From Spirogloea muscicola (taxonomy: Eukaryota > Streptophyta > Zygnematophyceae > Spirogloeales > Spirogloeaceae): a stretch of DNA of 20,165 nucleotides. Where the stretch lies: contig WELB01000017.1 in NCBI GenBank assembly GCA_009602725.1, positions 620,074-640,238 of the forward strand, in the 5' to 3' direction. Of this stretch, positions 283-17,299 are shown piece by piece; positions within the stretch are counted from its first letter, which is position 1; each line of letters begins with the position of its first letter. The notes below the pieces were generated by a model. The model was given only the letters and a program-made list of their open reading frames with translations, did not search any database and was not told where the DNA came from. The position numbers and the translations under genes were made by a program.

Positions 283-786
283 TTTCCCCCCTGGCCATGG
301 ACATCCACGGGTGTCACGGGGGTCAGTGGTCCTCGTTACTTTCGCTGCTGGCCTCTCAAGCTGACCAGCGGCGCCGGGAACGGGGTGCAGCCCTTCCCGG
401 TGGCTCGGTGCCTTTGGGTCTTGTGTCCTGCTACCGTATGCGCTTGTCTATGTCCCTACAGCGGTCCCAGGCGATTGCTTTGCATCGCCGGGCTGGTCGC
501 GCCCTTGCAGCAGCCTCTGGTTTGCGCAGCGGGGTTCTTCCTCCCCTCAGCTCATCTGACTTCCTACTGCTGACACGGGGGTATTGAGGGCGCCCTGTCT
601 GCCTAGCCTTTGGCTCCGTCATGAACACCTGTATGCATCTGGCTGGCAGTCTACAGCCGATTTGTTAATATCAGCAGCCGCTTGACTTTCATTTTTTTTC
701 ACTGCCTAGCCTTTGGCTCCGTCATCAACACCTGTATGCATCTGGCTGGCAGTTCACAGCCGGTTCTTCAATAATAGCAGCCGCTT
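283..786 (+). mobile_element. 5'-truncated non-LTR retrotransposon 3' end (family II)
   Basis: It starts directly after the 3' end of the preceding copy. The frame ending at 587 reads FSPLAMDIHGCHGG (the end of the endonuclease-like domain), then CYRMRLSMSLQRSQAIAL, AGRALAAASG and finally SSSDFLLLTRGY-stop. Compared with the copy at 3690-4331, part of the region between the endonuclease-like domain and the LQRSQA motif is scrambled or replaced. The 3' UTR contains CCTTTGGCTCCGTCAT, a hairpin GGCTGGCAGTCTACAGCC (641-658) and the terminus AATATCAGCAGCCGC. This UTR is present twice in tandem (see the repeat entry). An inverted relative lies at 9640-9965. The assignment to a non-LTR element rests on the shared C-terminus and 3' UTR; no reverse-transcriptase core is present. 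Confidence 0.75.
600..786 (+). repeat. Tandem duplication of the family II 3' UTR, 103-base period
   Basis: TGCCTAGCCTTTGGCTCCGT begins at 600 and again at 703. Each unit carries CACCTGTATGCATCTGGCTG, a hairpin (641-658 and 744-761), an A/T-rich patch and a CAGCAGCCGCTT or TAGCAGCCGCTT end (near 671-682 and 773-785). The first unit is followed by a linker rich in T, with a run of eight T at 692-699. The units differ at scattered positions, for example ATGAACACC against ATCAACACC, so the duplication is not recent or the second unit came from another copy. Confidence 0.85.
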
Positions 787-894
787 TGGCCCACCAGGAG
801 CTGCTCGCGGCGCACCCGGACCTGGCAGGCCAGACGGTCTCCTTTCCGCACCTCGCGCACACCGCTGACCTGCGCGTCCAAGCGCGCTTCAAAG
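787..894 (+). other. Short unexplained coding-like fragment between retroelement copies
   Basis: This stretch follows the second family II 3' terminus and precedes a minus-strand family III copy. It is GC-rich with codon-like composition. One plus-strand frame is open and includes LLAAHPDLAG and FPHLAHTADLRVQARFK. I do not recognise it. It could be a scrap of the element body, of a host exon, or chance open frame in GC-rich DNA. Confidence 0.3.
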
Positions 895-1164
895 AAGCAA
901 GTGCTCGCCCATTGAGAATAGGGGCTGAAAAAACCAGCCCGAAAAAGAATGGACGGAGTACGAGAAGGGGCCAGGGGAAGCGCTAAGCAACAGAAAGAAA
1001 GCAGCTACGAATCACTCAGTAACCTCTGCTAAGCAGCCGCAGGTCAGAGATGCTAGGCTCGTTGAAGTGGGTCCCCTGGCCAGAGCCAGAGGCAGCAGCG
1101 AGGGTAAAGAAGAAGCGCGGCCAGATTGACTAATGGCTGGGAAAGGCCAGCCCAAAGGAATGGA
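895..1164 (-). mobile_element. Non-LTR retrotransposon 3' end (family III) interrupted by a hairpin tail
   Basis: Read on the minus strand from about 1108 down, the sequence encodes LAAASGSGQGTHF, then SISDLRLLSRGY-stop. A 3' UTR of about 80 bases follows, then the hairpin block (GGGCTGG, loop, CAGCCC; the stem is imperfect here) and the tail CAATGGGCGAGCACTT, which ends near 899. The upstream side is broken. Where other copies continue AGRALAAASG, this copy has a second hairpin-tail unit in the same orientation (1106-1164), so the reading frame enters from a solo tail. It lies inverted relative to the two plus-strand family III copies to its right. Confidence 0.7.
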
Positions 1165-1269: not shown

Positions 1270-1552
1270 AATCGGCCTCCTCCCCTTGCCTCTGGCTCTG
1301 GCCATGGGACCCACTTCCAGCATTTTTGGGCTGGCTTTTCCAGCCCCTATTCTCAGTGGGAGAGCACTTTCTTCTTTCTTAGCATCTCTAATCTGCGGCT
1401 GCTTAGCAGAAGTTACTGAGTGATTCGTAGCTGCTTTGTTTCTTCGTGTGCTTGTTTTTCTTAGCGCTTCTCCTGGCCCCCTTCTCGTACTCTGTTCATT
1501 CTTTTCTGGGCTGGCTTTTCCAGCCCCTATCCTCAATGGGCAAGCACTTTCT
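1270..1552 (+). mobile_element. Non-LTR retrotransposon 3' end (family III) with a hairpin tail inserted in its coding part
   Basis: The frame reads LASGSGHGTHFQ, an 18-20 residue stretch from an inserted hairpin unit (1321-1380), then SISNLRLLSRSY-stop at about 1419. The uninterrupted relative at 2337-2360 has ACTTCCAG, GAGCCT, AGCATCTCT at this place, so about 60 bases replaced 6. The 3' UTR (1420-1496) and terminal hairpin plus tail (1497-1552) follow. The upstream part (about 1166-1270, with a frame reading VVDKAAYTTAVLQLPEADL) has no match that I can see and is left unassigned. Confidence 0.7.
1321..1380 (+). repeat. Solo hairpin-tail unit inserted in retroelement coding sequence
   Basis: The unit contains GGGCTGGCTTTTCCAGCCC (a 7-base stem with a 5-base loop) followed by CTATTCTCAGTGGGAGAGCA. 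It interrupts coding sequence of the surrounding copy with a net gain of about 54 bases, which keeps the frame. It matches the terminal block of family III elements. Confidence 0.8.
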
Positions 1553-1589
1553 CCCCGGGGGCAGCGGCGTGGCTTCAGGCCCTCCCCAT

Positions 1590-2525
1590 CAGCCCTCACT
1601 CTCCCCGATGAGGTATTTCGCACTGCCGTCCACCGGCTCCTGGGACCGCCGCCTCCATGTCTCCAGGGCGTGCGTCAGTGTGTACGCGGCGAGCGAGGGG
1701 CCGAGTCCGGGGAGCTGGCCGCTCATGTTCTGCGCTGCGCCCACGGCGGCGAGCGGACAGCGGCCCACGACCGCCTCCGCGATGCGAAGCATGGCATCCT
1801 GGTGGAGGCTGGCTTCTCGGTGGCAGGGGAAGAAAGTGCTCGCCCATTGAGGATAGGGCGGAGCACTCCGGCGCCATGCCGCTCCAGGAAAGGGCCGACG
1901 GTCTCCACGCCCGTCGCGTAGACCTGGTGGCCACCCCACAGGCCGGCGGGCCACATCTTCTCCTGGACGTGGTGACCATTGACGCATACCACCGCTCACA
2001 CCCAGCCCAATGTGCCACCAAGGTTGGGTATGCGGTCGCCTGCGCCGCTCGGGCTAAAGAGCTCAAGTACGCCGACCATCCGCGGGAAGACGAGTTCTCC
2101 CCGTTGGCAATTGACACCCATGGGGCGCTCGGTGGCTCGAGCTGCTTACCCAGCTCGCCCTTCACACCATCGCCCATCGCTTCCATGGGTAGCCAGTAGA
2201 CTTTCCTGCAGCCGGGTCGCTGGCGCAAGTGTCTCGTATGCGCCTGGCCGTCTCGCTGCAGAGGTCTATGGCCCGCGCGCTTCACCTTCGTGCTGGCAGA
2301 GCCCTCGCTGCTGCCTCTGGCCCTGGCCAGGGGACCCACTTCCAGGAGCCTAGCATCTCTGATCTGTGGCTGCTTAGCAGGGGTTACTGAGTATTTCGTA
2401 GCTGCTTTGTTTCTTTGTGTGCTTGTTTTTCTTAGCGCTACCCCTGGCCCCCTACTCGTCCTCTGTTCATTCTTTTTTTGGGCTGGCTTTTCCAGCCCCT
2501 ATCCTCAATGGGTGAGCACTTTCTC
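1590..2525 (+). mobile_element. Family III non-LTR retrotransposon 3' end, longest plus-strand copy, frameshifted
   Basis: It lies head-to-tail behind the preceding copy. Three frames are needed to read it. First (about 1600-1830): LPDEVFRTAVHRLLG, AAHVLRC and AHDRLRDA, the region before and around the C-terminal zinc-type motif. Second (about 1895-2150): RRVDLVATPQAGGPHLLLDV, KELKYAD and FSPLAIDTHGALGG, the restriction-like endonuclease-type domain. Third (about 2236-2390): SLQRSMARALHLRAGRALAA and SDLWLLSRGY-stop. A truncated hairpin tail in antisense (1829-1858) sits at the first frame break. The 3' UTR (2391-2467) matches 1420-1496 closely, and the terminal hairpin lies at 2468-2525. It is dead as a coding unit because of the frame breaks. 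Confidence 0.75.
1829..1858 (-). repeat. Truncated solo hairpin-tail unit in antisense
   Basis: The plus strand reads AAAGTGCTCGCCCATTGAGG followed by ATAGGG, the reverse complement of the family III tail. The unit stops just before the hairpin stem. It sits where the reading frame of the copy at 1590-2525 breaks, after AGFSVAGEE. Confidence 0.75.
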
Positions 2526-2580: not shown

Positions 2581-2639
2581 GTTCTGTTTTGGGCTGGCTT
2601 TTCCAGCCCCTATCCTCAATGGGCGAGCACTTTCTTCTA
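2581..2639 (+). repeat. Solo hairpin-tail unit
   Basis: TTTTGGGCTGGCTTTTCCAG is followed by the usual CTATCCTCAATGGGCGAGCA tail. It lies about 60 bases after the terminal hairpin of the preceding element, separated by unrelated sequence that contains a 7-base inverted repeat (CTAAGTC at 2557-2563, GACTTAG at 2575-2581). On the minus strand it abuts a SNLRLLTR remnant, so it appears to interrupt another copy one or two codons before its stop. Confidence 0.8.
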
Positions 2640-2700: not shown

Positions 2701-3397
2701 CAAGTAAGCCATCCCCCAAAATTGGCAAATGGACGTATATTAGTCGACAATATCAATCATGAACTGAGGCAGCCAGGGCAAGATTAGGACGAAGATCCAA
2801 ATCAAGTGCCAGGGAATGCTGCAGGGAAGCCAAAAAGCCCTAGGCCAAGGGCCCGAGGTACGAGAGCGAGAGTTCAGCTGAAGGAACCGGGAAAGCCCAC
2901 AATAAGTGAAGCTGTTCCAAAGAACGACTCTCCAGTAAGTGGTCGATTGCTTTTTGATTGGCCAGCGCTGAACAGAGCAGCCAAACGAGGCGGCGCGTGG
3001 GAAAGGCTCATGGGTGACTGGAGCCGCCACCAGCGGCGGCCCAGCCACGTCAGCAGCTCGCCTGCCCACATGTCGGCGTCACGGGGAGCCCCGAAGTGTT
3101 GCTGACGAGCGGCCGGGAAGACGAAAGAGAAGTGGCTCTTTCAAAGTACGTTCTTTCGAAAGGGGCAAGGGCTGTGATCATTGGTTGTTTTCCGACAGCT
3201 AGTCTGTCGAATTTGAGGTCACTCGTACTTACTGAGTGTTTCATCTTACGCCAGTTCTTAGATAGCGCTTTTGGCCCCTTCGTAATGTGGCCCCTTCGAA
3301 CCTTGTGAACAGCCAGCCCGATCAGAGTTGACAAGGCCCCGAGGGGCCGAAAAGCAGCTGAAACACGTATAAGCAAGTACCACGTAGAACACGTAAC
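2701..3397. other. Region without a recognisable gene
   Basis: Open frames here are short and show no family features. The stretch has mixed composition, with a GC-rich patch around 2980-3110. On the minus strand 3306-3323 reads GGGCTGGCTGTTCAC, a single arm of the hairpin seen at 9427-9446, suggesting more retroelement debris. I see no splice-consistent gene model. Confidence 0.4.
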
Positions 3398-3535
3398 ATC
3401 CAGTTAGCGGCCGCAAGTTAGAAAGACTAGCCGCCGGAATGCAGTCCCCTTACAGAAAGCCAGAGGCTGCAGCTAGAGCACGGCAGGGAGGGACAGCGAA
3501 ATGGATAGCGTGCGAGAGAGCGCAAATAGAGCGAG
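3398..3535 (-). mobile_element. Decayed retroelement C-terminus
   Basis: On the minus strand a frame reads RALAAASGFL-stop, and after small indels SLSNLRPLTG, matching the AGRALAAASG ... SDLLLLTRGY pattern of the better copies. It lies immediately downstream, on the minus strand, of the family I copy at 3540-4345, continuing the head-to-tail order. Boundaries are approximate. Confidence 0.5.
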
Positions 3536-3539
3536 GAAG

Positions 3540-4345
3540 GGAGGAAGAATGGAGTGTGTATTGATTTGATGGAGGGCCTGAGTGGCCAAGTACAAGGGCA
3601 AGCACATCGACAGATGCACATCACCTGCTGCTAAGAATGTGGCTCTCCCAAAAGGGAGCAAGGGCTTAGCTGCTGCTAAGCTGACCCGCTCAGTACCCAC
3701 GAGTCAGCACATAGAGGTCGCTAACTGATGCTCGAATACCGGACGGCAAATGACAAGCTCTTGAACTACCGGCCAAGGCTCGACCAGCTTTCTGATGCAA
3801 CGCATGAGCCTGAGCTCGCTGCAGACAAGCTGACACTCGACGTCGCAAAAAGGACAGATAGGCTGCCGGCATACCCATCTGGGCTGGAAGCATATCCTCG
3901 CGTCGTGCATATCCCAGACCCGCTACGTTCTCAAGGAGGGTATGGAAGCGAGGACCCAAGCAGCCGAAAGTGTCGATTGCGGCCGGGAGAAGGTGGTCGC
4001 TGCGGCGGTAGTCAGAGTAGTGTCGGAGCTTTCTCTGCTCAGCACCTCCCACTGCATGGCCAGCAATGTGTGTGGAAGCGGAACTCTTGTATGCCTCGGT
4101 CACCACCACATCCACCAAGGCTCGTGGGCCTCCGCCAGGTTGTACACCCACAATGTCCAGGGTGCGACGGTGATGGCGACCCTGGGAATCCGTGGTGATG
4201 GGCATTACACTGCTTACTTCCACAATGGCGCGGAAGCCGGCGTCGCGCATCAAGCCAGCCAGGGCGTCTCGGAGGAGATCGTGGGCGCCCACCACCTCAG
4301 GGCCTGTGGGACACCGCAGCATGTGGGTGGAAAGAACTGAAAGCG
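3540..4345 (-). mobile_element. Best-preserved family I non-LTR retrotransposon 3' end
   Basis: The minus-strand frame 4322 to 3690 is intact for 210 residues and stays open a little further upstream. In order it shows HMLRC and AHDLLRDALAGLMRDAGF (zinc-type motif region), RRTLDIVGVQPGG, ALVDVVVTEAY, EQRKLRHYSDY and LLPAAIDTFGCLGP (restriction-like endonuclease-type domain with candidate acidic and lysine residues), then RRRVSACLQRAQA, AGRALA and SDLYVLTRGY-stop. This is the usual order at the C-terminus of reverse transcriptases in several algal, oomycete and fungal non-LTR elements (family knowledge). The 3' UTR runs to about 3540 and matches 185-282. The 5' end is truncated near 4345, about 100 bases before the start codon of the next gene. 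The reverse-transcriptase core itself is missing. Confidence 0.8.
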
Positions 4346-8954: not shown

Positions 8955-9150
8955 GAGAGCGGGGTGGAACGGGCGTGTATGGGTTTGACGGAAGAGCTAG
9001 AGCGGACAAGTACAGAGGCAGGCACATTCACAGATGTACGTCTCTCCGCTGACCCGACCCGCTCAGTAACCTCCGGGTCAGTTCGAAGAAGTCGTTGGTG
9101 GAGCACGAGCAGCGAACGGCCGAGTCCAAGCCGTCTTGTTGTCACCAACT
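8955..9150 (-). mobile_element. Decayed family I retrotransposon 3' end
   Basis: On the minus strand a damaged terminal motif (DFFELTR, then a one-base shift before GGTTACTGAGCGGGTC) is followed by a 3' UTR matching the other family I copies: ATGTGCCTGCCTCTGTACTT, then a GTCAAACCCATACACG end. The coding part upstream (9085-9150) is hardly recognisable, and a plus-strand copy begins near its edge. Confidence 0.65.
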
Positions 9151-9560
9151 AGAGCACGCCCAGATACCTGGCGCAACACAGCATGCCCAGGTATCCCGCA
9201 TGCGGCTGTCCGTCTGGTTCCAACGTCCCAGGCTCACGCAGTGCACTTGCGGGCAGGCCGCACTTTGGCTGCTGCTTCTGGGTCGCGTCAGGGTGCCTCT
9301 TTTCCATCCGCAAGTTGCTCCGACTTGCTGCTGCTGACCCGGGGTTGCCAAGCTTCCATTCGCTGTTTTCTCTTGCATATCTCTGTTCTTGGCGCCTGCC
9401 GGCCCTTCGGACCATGTCCATCATTCCTGGGCTGGCTGTTCACAGCCCTTTCGCGCCCCTTTGGAGAGCCCTTTCCTGTCACTTTTGTTATTCTCCTTCC
9501 TGGGCTGGCCTCTCCAAGCCAATGCCCTCTCCTGGGAGCGTCTGTCTCTCTTCCCTACCC
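9151..9560 (+). mobile_element. Non-LTR retrotransposon 3' end with two hairpin blocks
   Basis: The frame reads VHLRAGRTLAAASGSRQG, then CSDLLLLTRGC with the usual GGY-stop lost, so it runs on. Just upstream SRMRLSVWFQRPRLT is in another frame, showing a frameshift. About 80 bases later comes CATTCCTGGGCTGGCTGTTC, completing a hairpin GGGCTGgctgttcaCAGCCC (9429-9448), with a tail GGAGAGCCCTTTC similar to the family III tail. A second, weaker hairpin block follows at 9507-9540. I treat it as a fourth, family III-related subgroup. Confidence 0.65.
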
Positions 9561-9639: not shown

Positions 9640-9965
9640 GGCTCGACCAGCAGAGAATGCGGCTGTCGATATTGAAGGATCGGCTGTGAACTGCCGACCA
9701 GATGCATACAGGTGTTTATGACGGAGCCAAAGGCTAGGCGGACCGGGCGCCCTCAATACCCCCGTGTCAGCAGTAGGAAATCAGATGAGCTGAGGGGAGG
9801 AAGAGCGACCCCGCTGCGCAAACCAGAGGCTGCTGCAAGGGCGCGACCAGCCCGGCGATGCACAAAGCAGTCGCCTGGGACCGCTGTGGGCACATAGACA
9901 AACGCATTCGGTAGCAGGACGCAAGACCCGAAGGCACCGAGCCACCGGGAGCTCGACCAGCGCAG
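9640..9965 (-). mobile_element. Family II retrotransposon 3' end, inverted relative of the copy at 283-786
   Basis: On the minus strand PVARCLRVLRPATE and, in other frames, CYRMRLSMCPQRSQATAL match the copy at 283-786. The 3' UTR shares CCTTTGGCTCCGTCAT, CACCTGTATGCATCTGG, the hairpin region (9682-9699) and an AATATCGACAGCCGC terminus. A base change or loss in the stretch equivalent to HRRAGRALAA shifts the frame. Only one UTR unit is present here, against two at 600-786. Confidence 0.75.
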
Positions 9966-13800: not shown

Positions 13801-16800
13801 CTTGTGGTTCTCAACATGGTAACATCATGGAGCACGACTTCGAGTCGGAGTCGGATATCAATGTCTTACGCTCTCTCACATTGCCTCTGCACAGGCAAAG
13901 TCCGCAGAGCAGGTTGCAAAAGCAGAGAAAGCTGAGATTCTAAATCAAACCAAGGTGAGGTCACATCCTGTGGACTGTCATTGTTTAGCATGACTTCAAC
14001 AGTGGTTGAGAAGCTGCTACCTGTGCCCAAGGTAGTGATGATTGCCACACACTGCAGAGCCTACCACATGCTACTATGCAGATACAGAACACAGGGAGAT
14101 CAGTGCTCCCTGTGATTTGCTCTTCAATCTGACCTCATGACTTTTCATTCTTCAGAGTACCTTCTTGGCTAGCATGAGTCATGAGCTTCGCACTCCCATG
14201 GCTGCCATTTTGGGCTTGCTAGACCTCGTACTCTTTGAAGACCTCCAACCAGAGGTGAAGACCAGGGTTGAGCAGATCAAAGCTGCATCCTCTGCCCTCC
14301 TGTCGCTTCTCAACGGCATCCTTGACCTCAGCAAGGTATGTGTTCCAAGTCAGACGAATCTTACAAAAGATTGAGTTCCTAAGACTTAACAAGCTCACGT
14401 CATTGTTGCTGCATCCATACTGGTCACCAAACACTGCTTTTGACATTCCCACCCCTAGCTTCTTGTGCAGGTAGAAGCTGGAAAGATGGTGCTGGAGACT
14501 GCGGAATTTGACATTCGTCAGGAGCTTGAGACCCTGGTCGACATCTTCTCAGTGCAGGTCAGCAATGAGGTGGTGTCAGCAATGCCCTGAGAAATGGTGG
14601 CATCTGTTTGTCAAGCTTGCAGGCTTGGATGAGACAGTAGCATAGAATGTCCCTGACCTGCTGTACTCCGACGTCCGTGCTTGTCTGCGCCAGGCTTTCA
14701 GCAAGGGCACAGAAATCGTGCTGGACTTTCCTAGCGACATGGACAGGATGGTCATCGGCGATGCTCCAAGGATTCGACAGATCATCAGCAACCTTCTGTC
14801 CAACGCGGTCAAGTTCACCTTGGATGGCTACATCATTATTCGCTGCTGGGAGGAGTCTTGCCCCGTGGACGCCGACAGCCCACAGCCTGCAGCAGTGCCA
14901 GCCAGCCGAGGGAAGGCTCACAGTAAAGCAAACGACTCGGGCACTGTGCATCAGGAACTTGTGAACATTGACCTGGAGTTGGGGCTTGAGCAGGACCTTG
15001 AGAAACCGGGCAAGGGGCCGCTCCTTGCCGCCATGCGACCAGTCATGCTCGTGTTTGAGCTGGACGACTCGGGTATTGGCGTTCCCAAGGAGAAGCGGGC
15101 GCTCATCTTTGAGAGCTTTGCGCAAGCGGACCTCAAGCACCAGCATGTTGGCACGGGCCTGGGGCTGGCAATTGTCAAGTCGCTGGTGCAGATGATGGGG
15201 GGAGGCATCGATATCCTCGACAAAGGCGAGGGCCTGCAAGGAACGCTGTTCCGCTTCAACATTATGCTTGCGCGGCCCGTCCAGGGTGCCATGCGCACTC
15301 TAACAGCACCGCACTCGGAGAGGTTGTGGCAGCCGTCCAGGGTCGAGAGAGCTCTATGTGGAGGCCATGTGTCGCTCCTTGTCAAGAACAAGCCTTGCTC
15401 GCAGGTAGCATCCAGGTGGTTGCAGCGCCGAGGGCTCCATGTCACAGAGATGCCCGACCTGAAAGTGTTGCTTGCAAGCCGCGGAGCTTGGGGAGCAGCT
15501 GCAGCGGCTACCGGAGATGATGCCGGCATCACTCAAGAGCACCAGCAACGAGAGCTGCCTTCCACCTCAGCTGCCGAGCCAGGGGTTCTGGATCTACTTA
15601 TTGTGGACACGGCAGCCATCCCTCTGTCCTCCAGCACTGGGGGCACCAGCGGAGGCATGGCATCTTCAAGTCCTTCCCCGGCAGCCTCCTCCTCCTCCAC
15701 TTCAGCCAGCTCCACTGATAGAGGTAGCCAAGTGGCCAGCATGCCGCAGCTCCTCAGGCTGCTCCAGGCCCAGTTCGTGGGGGGCACGTTGCCAAGCCGC
15801 CGCCCCGCTGTCATCTGGCTGGTGGCAGCCAACACCCCAGCCAGCTGGCGAGAGCTGCTGCGGCGCACAGGCTGTGGGGCTATTGTGTGCAAGCCGCTGC
15901 ATCCTTCTCGGATGGAGCAGCTGCTAAACATTGCGCTCGCTCAGCATGACTTGCTGAACCCCACAACGGCCTCAAGCTCTGGGCAACCATTGCCTGCTGC
16001 ACAAGATGAAGAGGAAATCTCGCTTGCGGCTTCAGCGGTGGAGCTGCCCCTGCAGGCTGTAAGCCAGTCTGGTGAAGGTCGAGGCGAGACAGGTACAACA
16101 AGAGCAGCGCCTCGGCAGGACGAGCGGCACCTGCCCAGCAGCGCTCCTGCGCAGGAGCCCAGGGGGAAGAGGGGGGGCTTCTCCACGGCGACTGCCTCAG
16201 CTGTATACCAGCCTCCGTCTGATGAGGTGAAGATGAGGTGGGCCTCCTTCAGGCCTCTCGACAGCAGCTCAGAGAGCAGGAGGAATAGTCTGGACAGCTC
16301 CGTAGGTATGGGTGCCATGCCGTGGAGCTTGGAGAGGCTTGCTGTGAGCAGCCCGGATGTTGGGACGCCCACTGACAGCCCACATCGTCCGAGCGAGACG
16401 CCAACTTGGGCTGTGGACCCCTTCCCACATTCGCTTCCAGAGATGAGCAGCAGCTTTGCCAGAGGGGAGGGTGGCTTGCGACGGCAGCTGTCAGACGTCT
16501 CTATTCTCAGGGCGTCCACCGATGCAGGCAATGGGTTGGTTGGCACCACCAGGCTGCAGCCGAAAGAGAGCAGCACCTTGACGGGGGTACGCATTCTGCT
16601 GGCGGAGGACGTCCCCGTGCTGAAGCGCCTGGCCATCATGCTGCTCGAAAAGCTTGGTGCCAGGGTGGTTGCTGTGACAAATGGCCAGGAGGCGGTGGAT
16701 GCTGTGAGGGCCAGCGTCCAGCAGGAGGAGGCTTCTCAAACATCGAGCGAGCAGACCAGCGATGCTTCCTTGGCGACTTCAACAGAGGCTGAGTCGTCTG

Positions 16801-17299
16801 GCAAGCAGCACGCCTTCGACTTGGTGCTCATGGATTGCCAGGTATGCATCTGCATTCCACTTACCTTCACAGGGTTTCTACAAAAGTGCTGCTCTGTGAA
16901 GTGAAATGTGTGTCCAGGAAAGCAACGATAAAAACATGTTCACTTCAGGGCCTGCAGGCGATGCCTCGTGAGTGCCACTCCATCCAGTACTGCATGCTGC
17001 TGTTACTCGAGAAAGTGGTCAAGGTGATGTGCATATATCACGTTGGAGGTGGTCTGATAAATTGTGGGGTCTGTGGTATCAAACAGATGCCTGTCATGGA
17101 TGGCTATGCGGCCACGGAGGAGATCCGGAGACTGGAAAGGGGGCATCACACACCCATTGTTGCTCTGACTGCCAATGCCATGACAAATGATGAGAAAAAA
17201 TGTTTGGAGGCTGGCATGGATGCTTTCCTTACCAAACCAATAAATGCAGAGCTCCTTGTCGCTACTGTGCTGCGCTTAGTACGTCCAGGCCAATCCTGA
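10848..17299 (+). CDS. Transmembrane hybrid sensor histidine kinase (plant AHK/CKI1-like architecture)
   Basis: My exons are 10848-10979, 11605-11754, 11997-12089, 12467-13375, 13529-13693, 13895-13954, 14156-14335, 14471-14557, 14694-16841 and 17087-17299, giving 1378 residues. TM1 (about 34-61) is joined precisely by intron 1. The ectodomain (62-448) is Cache-like (LSPVYDVSGAYVGATLTGSS, GGRLYLITDGNLLAAA). TM2 is about 449-474, followed by a charged linker. HisKA has MSHELRTP with phospho-acceptor H512. HATPase has the N box (N629), DDSGIG (716-721), FESF (731-734) and GTGLGL (745-750). A degenerate receiver (about 812-1010) keeps an Asp (LLIVDT, 897) and CKPL Lys 992 but lacks the acidic pair. 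A true receiver (about 1225-1378) has E1230/D1231, phospho-acceptor D1306, T1336 and K1358. Role: membrane sensing feeding a His-Asp phosphorelay, which would need a separate HPt protein. All nine introns are phase 0. The start ATG is inferred; ligand unknown. Confidence 0.88.

Follow-up and report, generated by a model that had tools for sequence, protein, structure and literature searches.

Lone 3′ tails within a nest of retroelement-like copies are probably products of extreme 5′ truncation

The stretch of DNA analyzed here (the window, 20,165 bases) contains nested retroelement-like ends that fill most of its first 4.3 kb. We sorted them into families I–IV, a scheme taken over from an earlier note on this sequence and extended here. 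Terminal codons are similar across the four families (for example LYVLTRGY, LLLTRGY, LLSRSY and LLLTRGC), and a 3′ UTR comes after them. Families I, II and III can be aligned as proteins; in this protein alignment, identity to the family I segment was 43% for family III, 46% for family II and 87% for a second family I segment. Beyond the nest lie other frames, of which one has a cation-efflux match and another, kinase-like, contains HATPase_c. The source of the DNA would be eukaryotic, with a green alga as the probable host. Positions 1–790 of the window show an apparent tail-to-head row in one orientation, made up of a family I end, a truncated family II copy, a lone family II tail and family III coding remains. 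The copies and tails referred to below are the following:

395–683, plus strand: end of family II copy II_a, with its tail at 599–683 and GGCTGGCAGTCTACAGCC at 641
702–786, plus strand: lone family II tail comprising most of the 3′ UTR of its family, situated downstream of the II_a tail
897–1104, minus strand: family III copy III_6, 5′-truncated, about 208 bp, with a tail match at 891–953
1106–1164, minus strand: tail 7, lone family III tail, degenerate, directly 5′ of the truncated III_6 start
1286–1550, plus strand: family III copy III_2, 5′-truncated, 265 bp with tail 1 counted in, ending in a tail of its own (1497–1550)
1321–1380, plus strand: tail 1, lone family III tail within the last codons of III_2, missing from III_3 and III_6
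1557–2525, plus strand: family III copy III_3, about 1 kb long, with remnants of coding sequence broken in frame at several points, a 3′ UTR and a tail at 2468–2525
1829–1858, minus strand: tail 5, lone family III tail, the 3′-most 26–32 bases without the hairpin, inside the III_3 reading frame
2581–2639, plus strand: tail 4, lone family III tail, 55 bases past the III_3 tail, adjoining a broken terminal motif ...NLRLLTR (minus-strand reading)
9416–9481, plus strand: family IV tail, with the related hairpin GGGCTGGCTGTTCACAGCCC at 9429; the family III tail model matches it weakly (E 0.027)
near 14,150–17,270: kinase gene, which leads the translated matches of contig L001 (see below) to the window

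The family III block consists of a hairpin, GGGCTGG-N5-CCAGCCC, and a 3′ tail. The exact hairpin GGGCTGGCTTTTCCAGCCC occurs at 1328, 1508, 2480 and 2591, and variants of it occur at 940–922 (minus strand, one G-U pair), at 1153–1135 (minus strand, shifted) and at 9502 (weak). Allowing up to three mismatches, the hairpin pattern gave 11 matches in the window against 0.16 expected, and none of 100 shuffles reached 11; these matches correspond to 7 distinct places, palindromic ones scoring on both strands. Self-BLAST found the block in common at the places listed in the earlier note, and together with the pattern search it confirmed that the block ends family III copies at 1497–1552 and 2468–2525. 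Beyond that list, we found the tail of a third long copy (891–953, minus strand) and the lone family II tail at 702–786. A covariance model trained on six tails matched the window 12 times. Its 7 strong matches were the six training sequences themselves and the minus-strand stretch 1826–1898 (38.8 bits, E 3.6e-8); weak ones lay in or beside the family IV tail at 9416–9481 (E 0.027) and 9489–9552 (E 0.31), and three further matches had E of 5.9 to 9.5. The model returned no strong match in the window outside the family III tails of the nest. The family IV 3′ region at 9416–9552 shows two related hairpin-like stretches in tandem, possibly a lone tail behind a full one.

The 3′ end of family III was defined by copy III_2. 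CTCCCC borders this copy at 1280–1285 and 1551–1556, and joining its flanks yields one open stretch that runs from ...ADLRGRARLQSASSP directly into GAAAWLQALP.... From the repeat on both sides and the in-frame joining of the flanks it follows that III_2 is a 5′-truncated insertion into III_3 with a 6-bp target duplication. It sets the family 3′ end at GAGCACTTT or a few bases further, and III_6 and III_3 terminate in the same tail. Upstream, III_3 extends at least into the III_2 flank (to 1241), perhaps to 781. Copy III_6 carries a 7-bp repeat, CTTCTTT, at either end; this is a candidate target duplication or possibly tail sequence. The starts of III_2 and III_6 lie within about 10 bases of one another in the element.

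The lone tails are about 26 to 85 bases long, and an own 5′ body is absent in all four family III cases. Tail 1 had been read before as about 60 bases replacing 6 with the frame kept, which proved right against two sister copies and the open frame 1126–1419, a frame that begins upstream of the element. Its site is empty in both sister copies that cover it, and judged by this comparison tail 1 is an insertion, or about 60 bases in place of 6. As an alternative, the 5-bp AGCAT on either side of it would represent a target duplication, with a separate 8-bp deletion. Tail 4 indeed stands alone against the broken terminal motif, as had been stated. The lone block noted upstream of LAAASG is likewise real; it is our tail 7, which lies on the minus strand, is degenerate and adjoins the truncated family III start at the AAASG codons. 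For the antisense block at 1829–1858 (tail 5), the description as a lone antisense copy holds, as all 30 bases are identical to 2637–2608 in self-BLAST; the hairpin that was thought to belong to it is absent. Deleting 26, 29 or 32 bases (the only lengths tried) from the region 1829–1860 gave one open frame, the frame past tail 5 aligns with family I (EHSGAMP versus EVSSVMP), and the 32-base deletion gives the family I spacing of 9 residues from AGF to MP. Because the host III_3 has other frame breaks, we take the reopened frame as weak support and not as proof. Next to tail 5, the host sequence GAGCACT (1861–1867) is the reverse complement of 1835–1841 in the inserted tail, and the site could fold back on itself; this may be chance or may have guided the insertion. 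The lone family II tail at 702–786 is 89.4% identical to 599–683 over 85 bases. No clear target duplication was found at tails 4, 5 and 7 or at the lone family II tail.

In all five lone tails, four of family III and one of family II, the family's 3′ end is retained, although in tail 7 it is degenerate. Their 5′ ends differ, though not all of them, since tails 1 and 4 have a near-identical start. A constant 3′ end combined with 5′ truncation, a feature of non-LTR retrotransposons, is hence found here. Lengths of family III copies form a graded series of 26–32 bases, three copies at about 50–60, one at about 208, one at 265 (tail 1 included) and one at about 1 kb. In all six recognizable family III copies, the degenerate tail 7 being omitted, the GAGCACTTT-type end is followed by CTYY, and Zepp-type poly(A) is absent from these six ends. 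As background, the fraction of positions, both strands counted, at which CTYY starts is 0.021, and of 407 TTT, 18 are followed by it. In III_2 the CTYY word itself is the target duplication. The recurrence of CTYY after the tail suggests a short pyrimidine repeat at the RNA 3′ end, or microhomology with the target. We dropped the idea of a target-site preference for CTYY after GAGCACTTT, as it is indistinguishable from a 3′ repeat of the RNA.

Folding gave a mixed picture of the tails. The inner hairpin is part of the minimum-energy structure in five of the six stretches folded and is missing from that of tail 7. Folding z-scores were −2.2, −2.8 and −5.1 for the long family III copies and −1.6, −1.3 and −0.5 for tails 1, 4 and 7. 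Across six aligned tails, 41 of 42 cells of the family III stem are paired (97.6%), and 5 of its 7 pairs are invariant; covariation was not found, as no pair had changed on both sides and all 500 shuffles reached the observed score. An outer stem, GUUCAUU/AAUGGGC, has 7 of 7 pairs in the three long copies; its arms were hand-picked and it was predicted for III_6 only, and we do not rely on it. Rfam at gathering scores gave no match. A shorter motif, GGCTGG-N4-8-CAGCC, picked after the tails had been inspected, occurs at 9 distinct sites in the window, every one at a family II, III or IV tail, versus a mean of 0.49 and a maximum of 3 in 100 first-order random sequences. Its presence in the tails of these three families would fit one common recognition signal. 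In family II, two of three tails contain the motif (the one at 9701, minus strand, does not), and in both family II tails folded the hairpin is not in the predicted structure. Here 163 and 10 of 200 shuffles folded at least as well as the real stretch, and one tail had a z-score of +0.93. For the family IV tail, folding predicted the hairpin.

Each lone block probably stems from its own retrotransposition event, in which a LINE-type element was copied by target-primed reverse transcription with extreme 5′ truncation. The enzyme of the element would recognize the 3′ tail of its RNA, and reverse transcription would start at the RNA 3′ end, in or near the short pyrimidine stretch after GAGCACTTT. 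If copying then halted after 26 to about 85 bases, the tail alone would be inserted. The enzyme, hairpin recognition and target priming are putative, as the window yielded no demonstrable reverse transcriptase domain. The common 3′ end and the graded 5′ losses are the series expected from target-primed reverse transcription that stops early. Further points for truncation are the empty tail 1 sites, the 6-bp duplication of III_2 and the same pattern in family II. Against it, none of the four lone family III tails is more than about 0.3 kb away from the tail of a long copy. The near-identical start of tails 1 and 4 is not predicted by random truncation, and III_2 and III_6 also start close together, which with so few copies is only suggestive. 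Truncation must also be reconciled with the hairpin missing from the predicted structures of tail 7 and both folded family II tails, with the want of clear duplications at tails 4, 5 and 7 and the second event that AGCAT at tail 1 requires, and with the family II tail at 9701 (minus strand) without the motif, the invariant stem without covariation and the lack of a Pfam family in the element segments.

The earlier note had proposed either extremely 5′-truncated insertions or a tiny non-autonomous element made only of the hairpin. Of these, the former is likely, given the 3′ anchoring, the two empty sister sites among two, the recurrence in family II and the graded lengths. The latter is not needed and is improbable, with the nearly identical 5′ end of two of the four lone family III copies in its favor. 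The same note had named two ways in which its idea could fall. Not every copy ends a longer element, as the lone copies exist, and gene conversion alone would fail to explain tails 1 and 5, which have host sequence on both sides.

Some of the lone tails could alternatively be parts of compound insertions, in which the reverse transcriptase switches to the 3′ end of another RNA and copies the tail only. Tail-to-head joining is an expected trace of such template jumping (R2). Tail 7 adjoins III_6 at its truncated 5′ start, and about 19 bases past the II_a tail the lone tail of family II begins; both arrangements favor a jump. However, tails 1 and 5, which lie inside an otherwise continuous element, fit poorly, and CTTCTTT at the ends of tail 7 and III_6 would equally fit a separate second insertion, or may be tail sequence. 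We regard template jumping as unlikely, though less so than the other alternatives. A template-jump model has been discussed for ZfL2-2 (PMC2666801). A break in the nest might instead have been mended with a short copy of a nearby tail, with no retrotransposition involved. The closeness of the lone family III tails to the tail of a long copy (at most about 0.3 kb), together with the lack of a strong match elsewhere in the window, makes such local copying during repair conceivable, and it would account for tail 5, which equals tail 4 over 30 bases and is without a target duplication. Random patches should, however, not always stop at the element 3′ end, as five of five do, and the same pattern is seen in a second family, so that this explanation appears improbable to us.

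A distinct non-autonomous unit some 55 bases long, itself transcribed or released by processing and then moved by the family III enzyme, would explain why tails 1 and 4 both begin about 4 bases before the hairpin, at TTTTGGGCTGG, and why three of the four lone family III copies have about 50–60 bases. But tail 5 falls short of this length, the start of tail 7 lies about 12 bases farther upstream, the lone tail of family II reaches about 85 bases, and only four lone copies of family III are known; we find this unit slightly harder still to credit than repair. Just as doubtful is the related idea that the family III tail existed as a discrete RNA of about 50–55 bases, protected by its hairpin and repeatedly used as a template. 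Lastly, short repeats of this size can mislead an assembly, and tails 4 and 7 are not cleared of this suspicion. A misjoin alone would not yield a host element that runs on past the insert, as it does at tails 1 and 5, and an artefact of this kind seems very improbable.

Severe 5′ truncation is described for LINEs of other clades and hosts, and the simplest view of a lone tail of about 55 bases is that it shows this known behavior in extreme form. In Anolis, a surplus of polymorphic CR1 insertions is ascribed in the cited account to many severely truncated ones below 50 bp (PMC5389967), and ZfL2-2 insertions are described with target duplication, blunt joining and target truncation (PMC2666801). 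The lone tails here are alike in severe 5′ truncation and differ in being nested in one another, with five seen. In cockroach R2, 5′-truncated copies and target deletions of differing size are reported (PMC7650587). Recognition of a 3′ stem-loop by LINE proteins is established for ZfL2-1 and ZfL2-2 (PMC4176376); the likeness to our elements is a stem-loop near the 3′ end, for which recognition here is putative. Green algae contain LINE/SINE pairs with common tails, RandI with SINEX families and L1-1_CR with SINEX-3, and SINEX-2_CR is given as ending in (CTTT)n (PMC3747384). As far as tail features alone are compared, the likeness to RandI/SINEX consists in short 3′ repeats, whereas the lone units here have no 5′ body. 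Zepp and Zepp-like LINEs of green algae are found as nested or clustered copies (PMC3446292, PMC8226300), and the 3′ repeat of Zepp is listed as poly(A) (PMC3747384). Clustering is thus alike, whereas the family III tails are without poly(A), and the likeness we see is one of arrangement. In the literature that we searched we met no hairpin-only element of this size, which is not to deny that such elements exist elsewhere. The nest offers natural minimal substrates, and its 26- to 60-base copies give a measure of how small an inserted part of the tail can be. Moreover, the alike hairpin motif in the tails of three families hints at one retained recognition signal. A discrete tail RNA, if it existed, would be among the smallest non-autonomous retroelements, reduced to the recognition hairpin, and a genome-wide peak near 55 bases, if present, would speak for a small, defined RNA template and for a lower bound on the size of retroelements.

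Pfam gave no family for three element segments, of which the family I segment alone lies wholly in the frame of the element; of the other two, one enters the frame only in its second half and one is out of frame throughout. A sequence search of the PDB with the family I segment returned two phospholipases at E 1.8, which we take as meaningless. Its AlphaFold model was of low confidence (pLDDT 41.9, pTM 0.35), and a likeness of its helix and strand order to PD-(D/E)XK nucleases, seen by eye at this pLDDT, was given no weight. In viral contigs, the 21-base tail pattern matched no stretch. Two protein searches of these contigs turned up 42 and 20 stretches carrying the peptide pattern, among which tblastn identified no relative; of the second query, just the latter half is in the element's frame. 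In genome contigs, an exact 23-mer of the tail had no match and a looser 21-mer had one, L001, from a Roseomonas assembly; by our own arithmetic, about 0.5 matches to the 21-mer pattern are expected by chance in 257 Gb. We rejected L001 as a chance match, because its likeness to the block is limited to the 21 bases of the pattern and strong matches to the window are translated ones only, led by the kinase gene. The 68-base block had no match in this Roseomonas genome, in a search run without a positive control, so that this empty result carries no weight.

Two further spots in the window touch family I. On the minus strand, a family I-like stretch of about 95–135 bp at 8960–9094 starts in the last codons and is possibly a short truncation. 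At 3636–3669, the 3′ UTR of the minus-strand family I copy 3520–3890 carries a 34-bp insertion with a small hairpin, CTCCC-TTTT-GGGAG, which folds no better than chance (29 of 200 shuffles). It is bordered by a perfect 11-bp repeat, CTTAGCAGCAG in element orientation, and is absent from three other aligned copies. The repeat is single in two of these empty copies, in one of them with 1 change, and the third copy has diverged there. The stretch 3120–3175 loosely resembles this 34-bp insertion.
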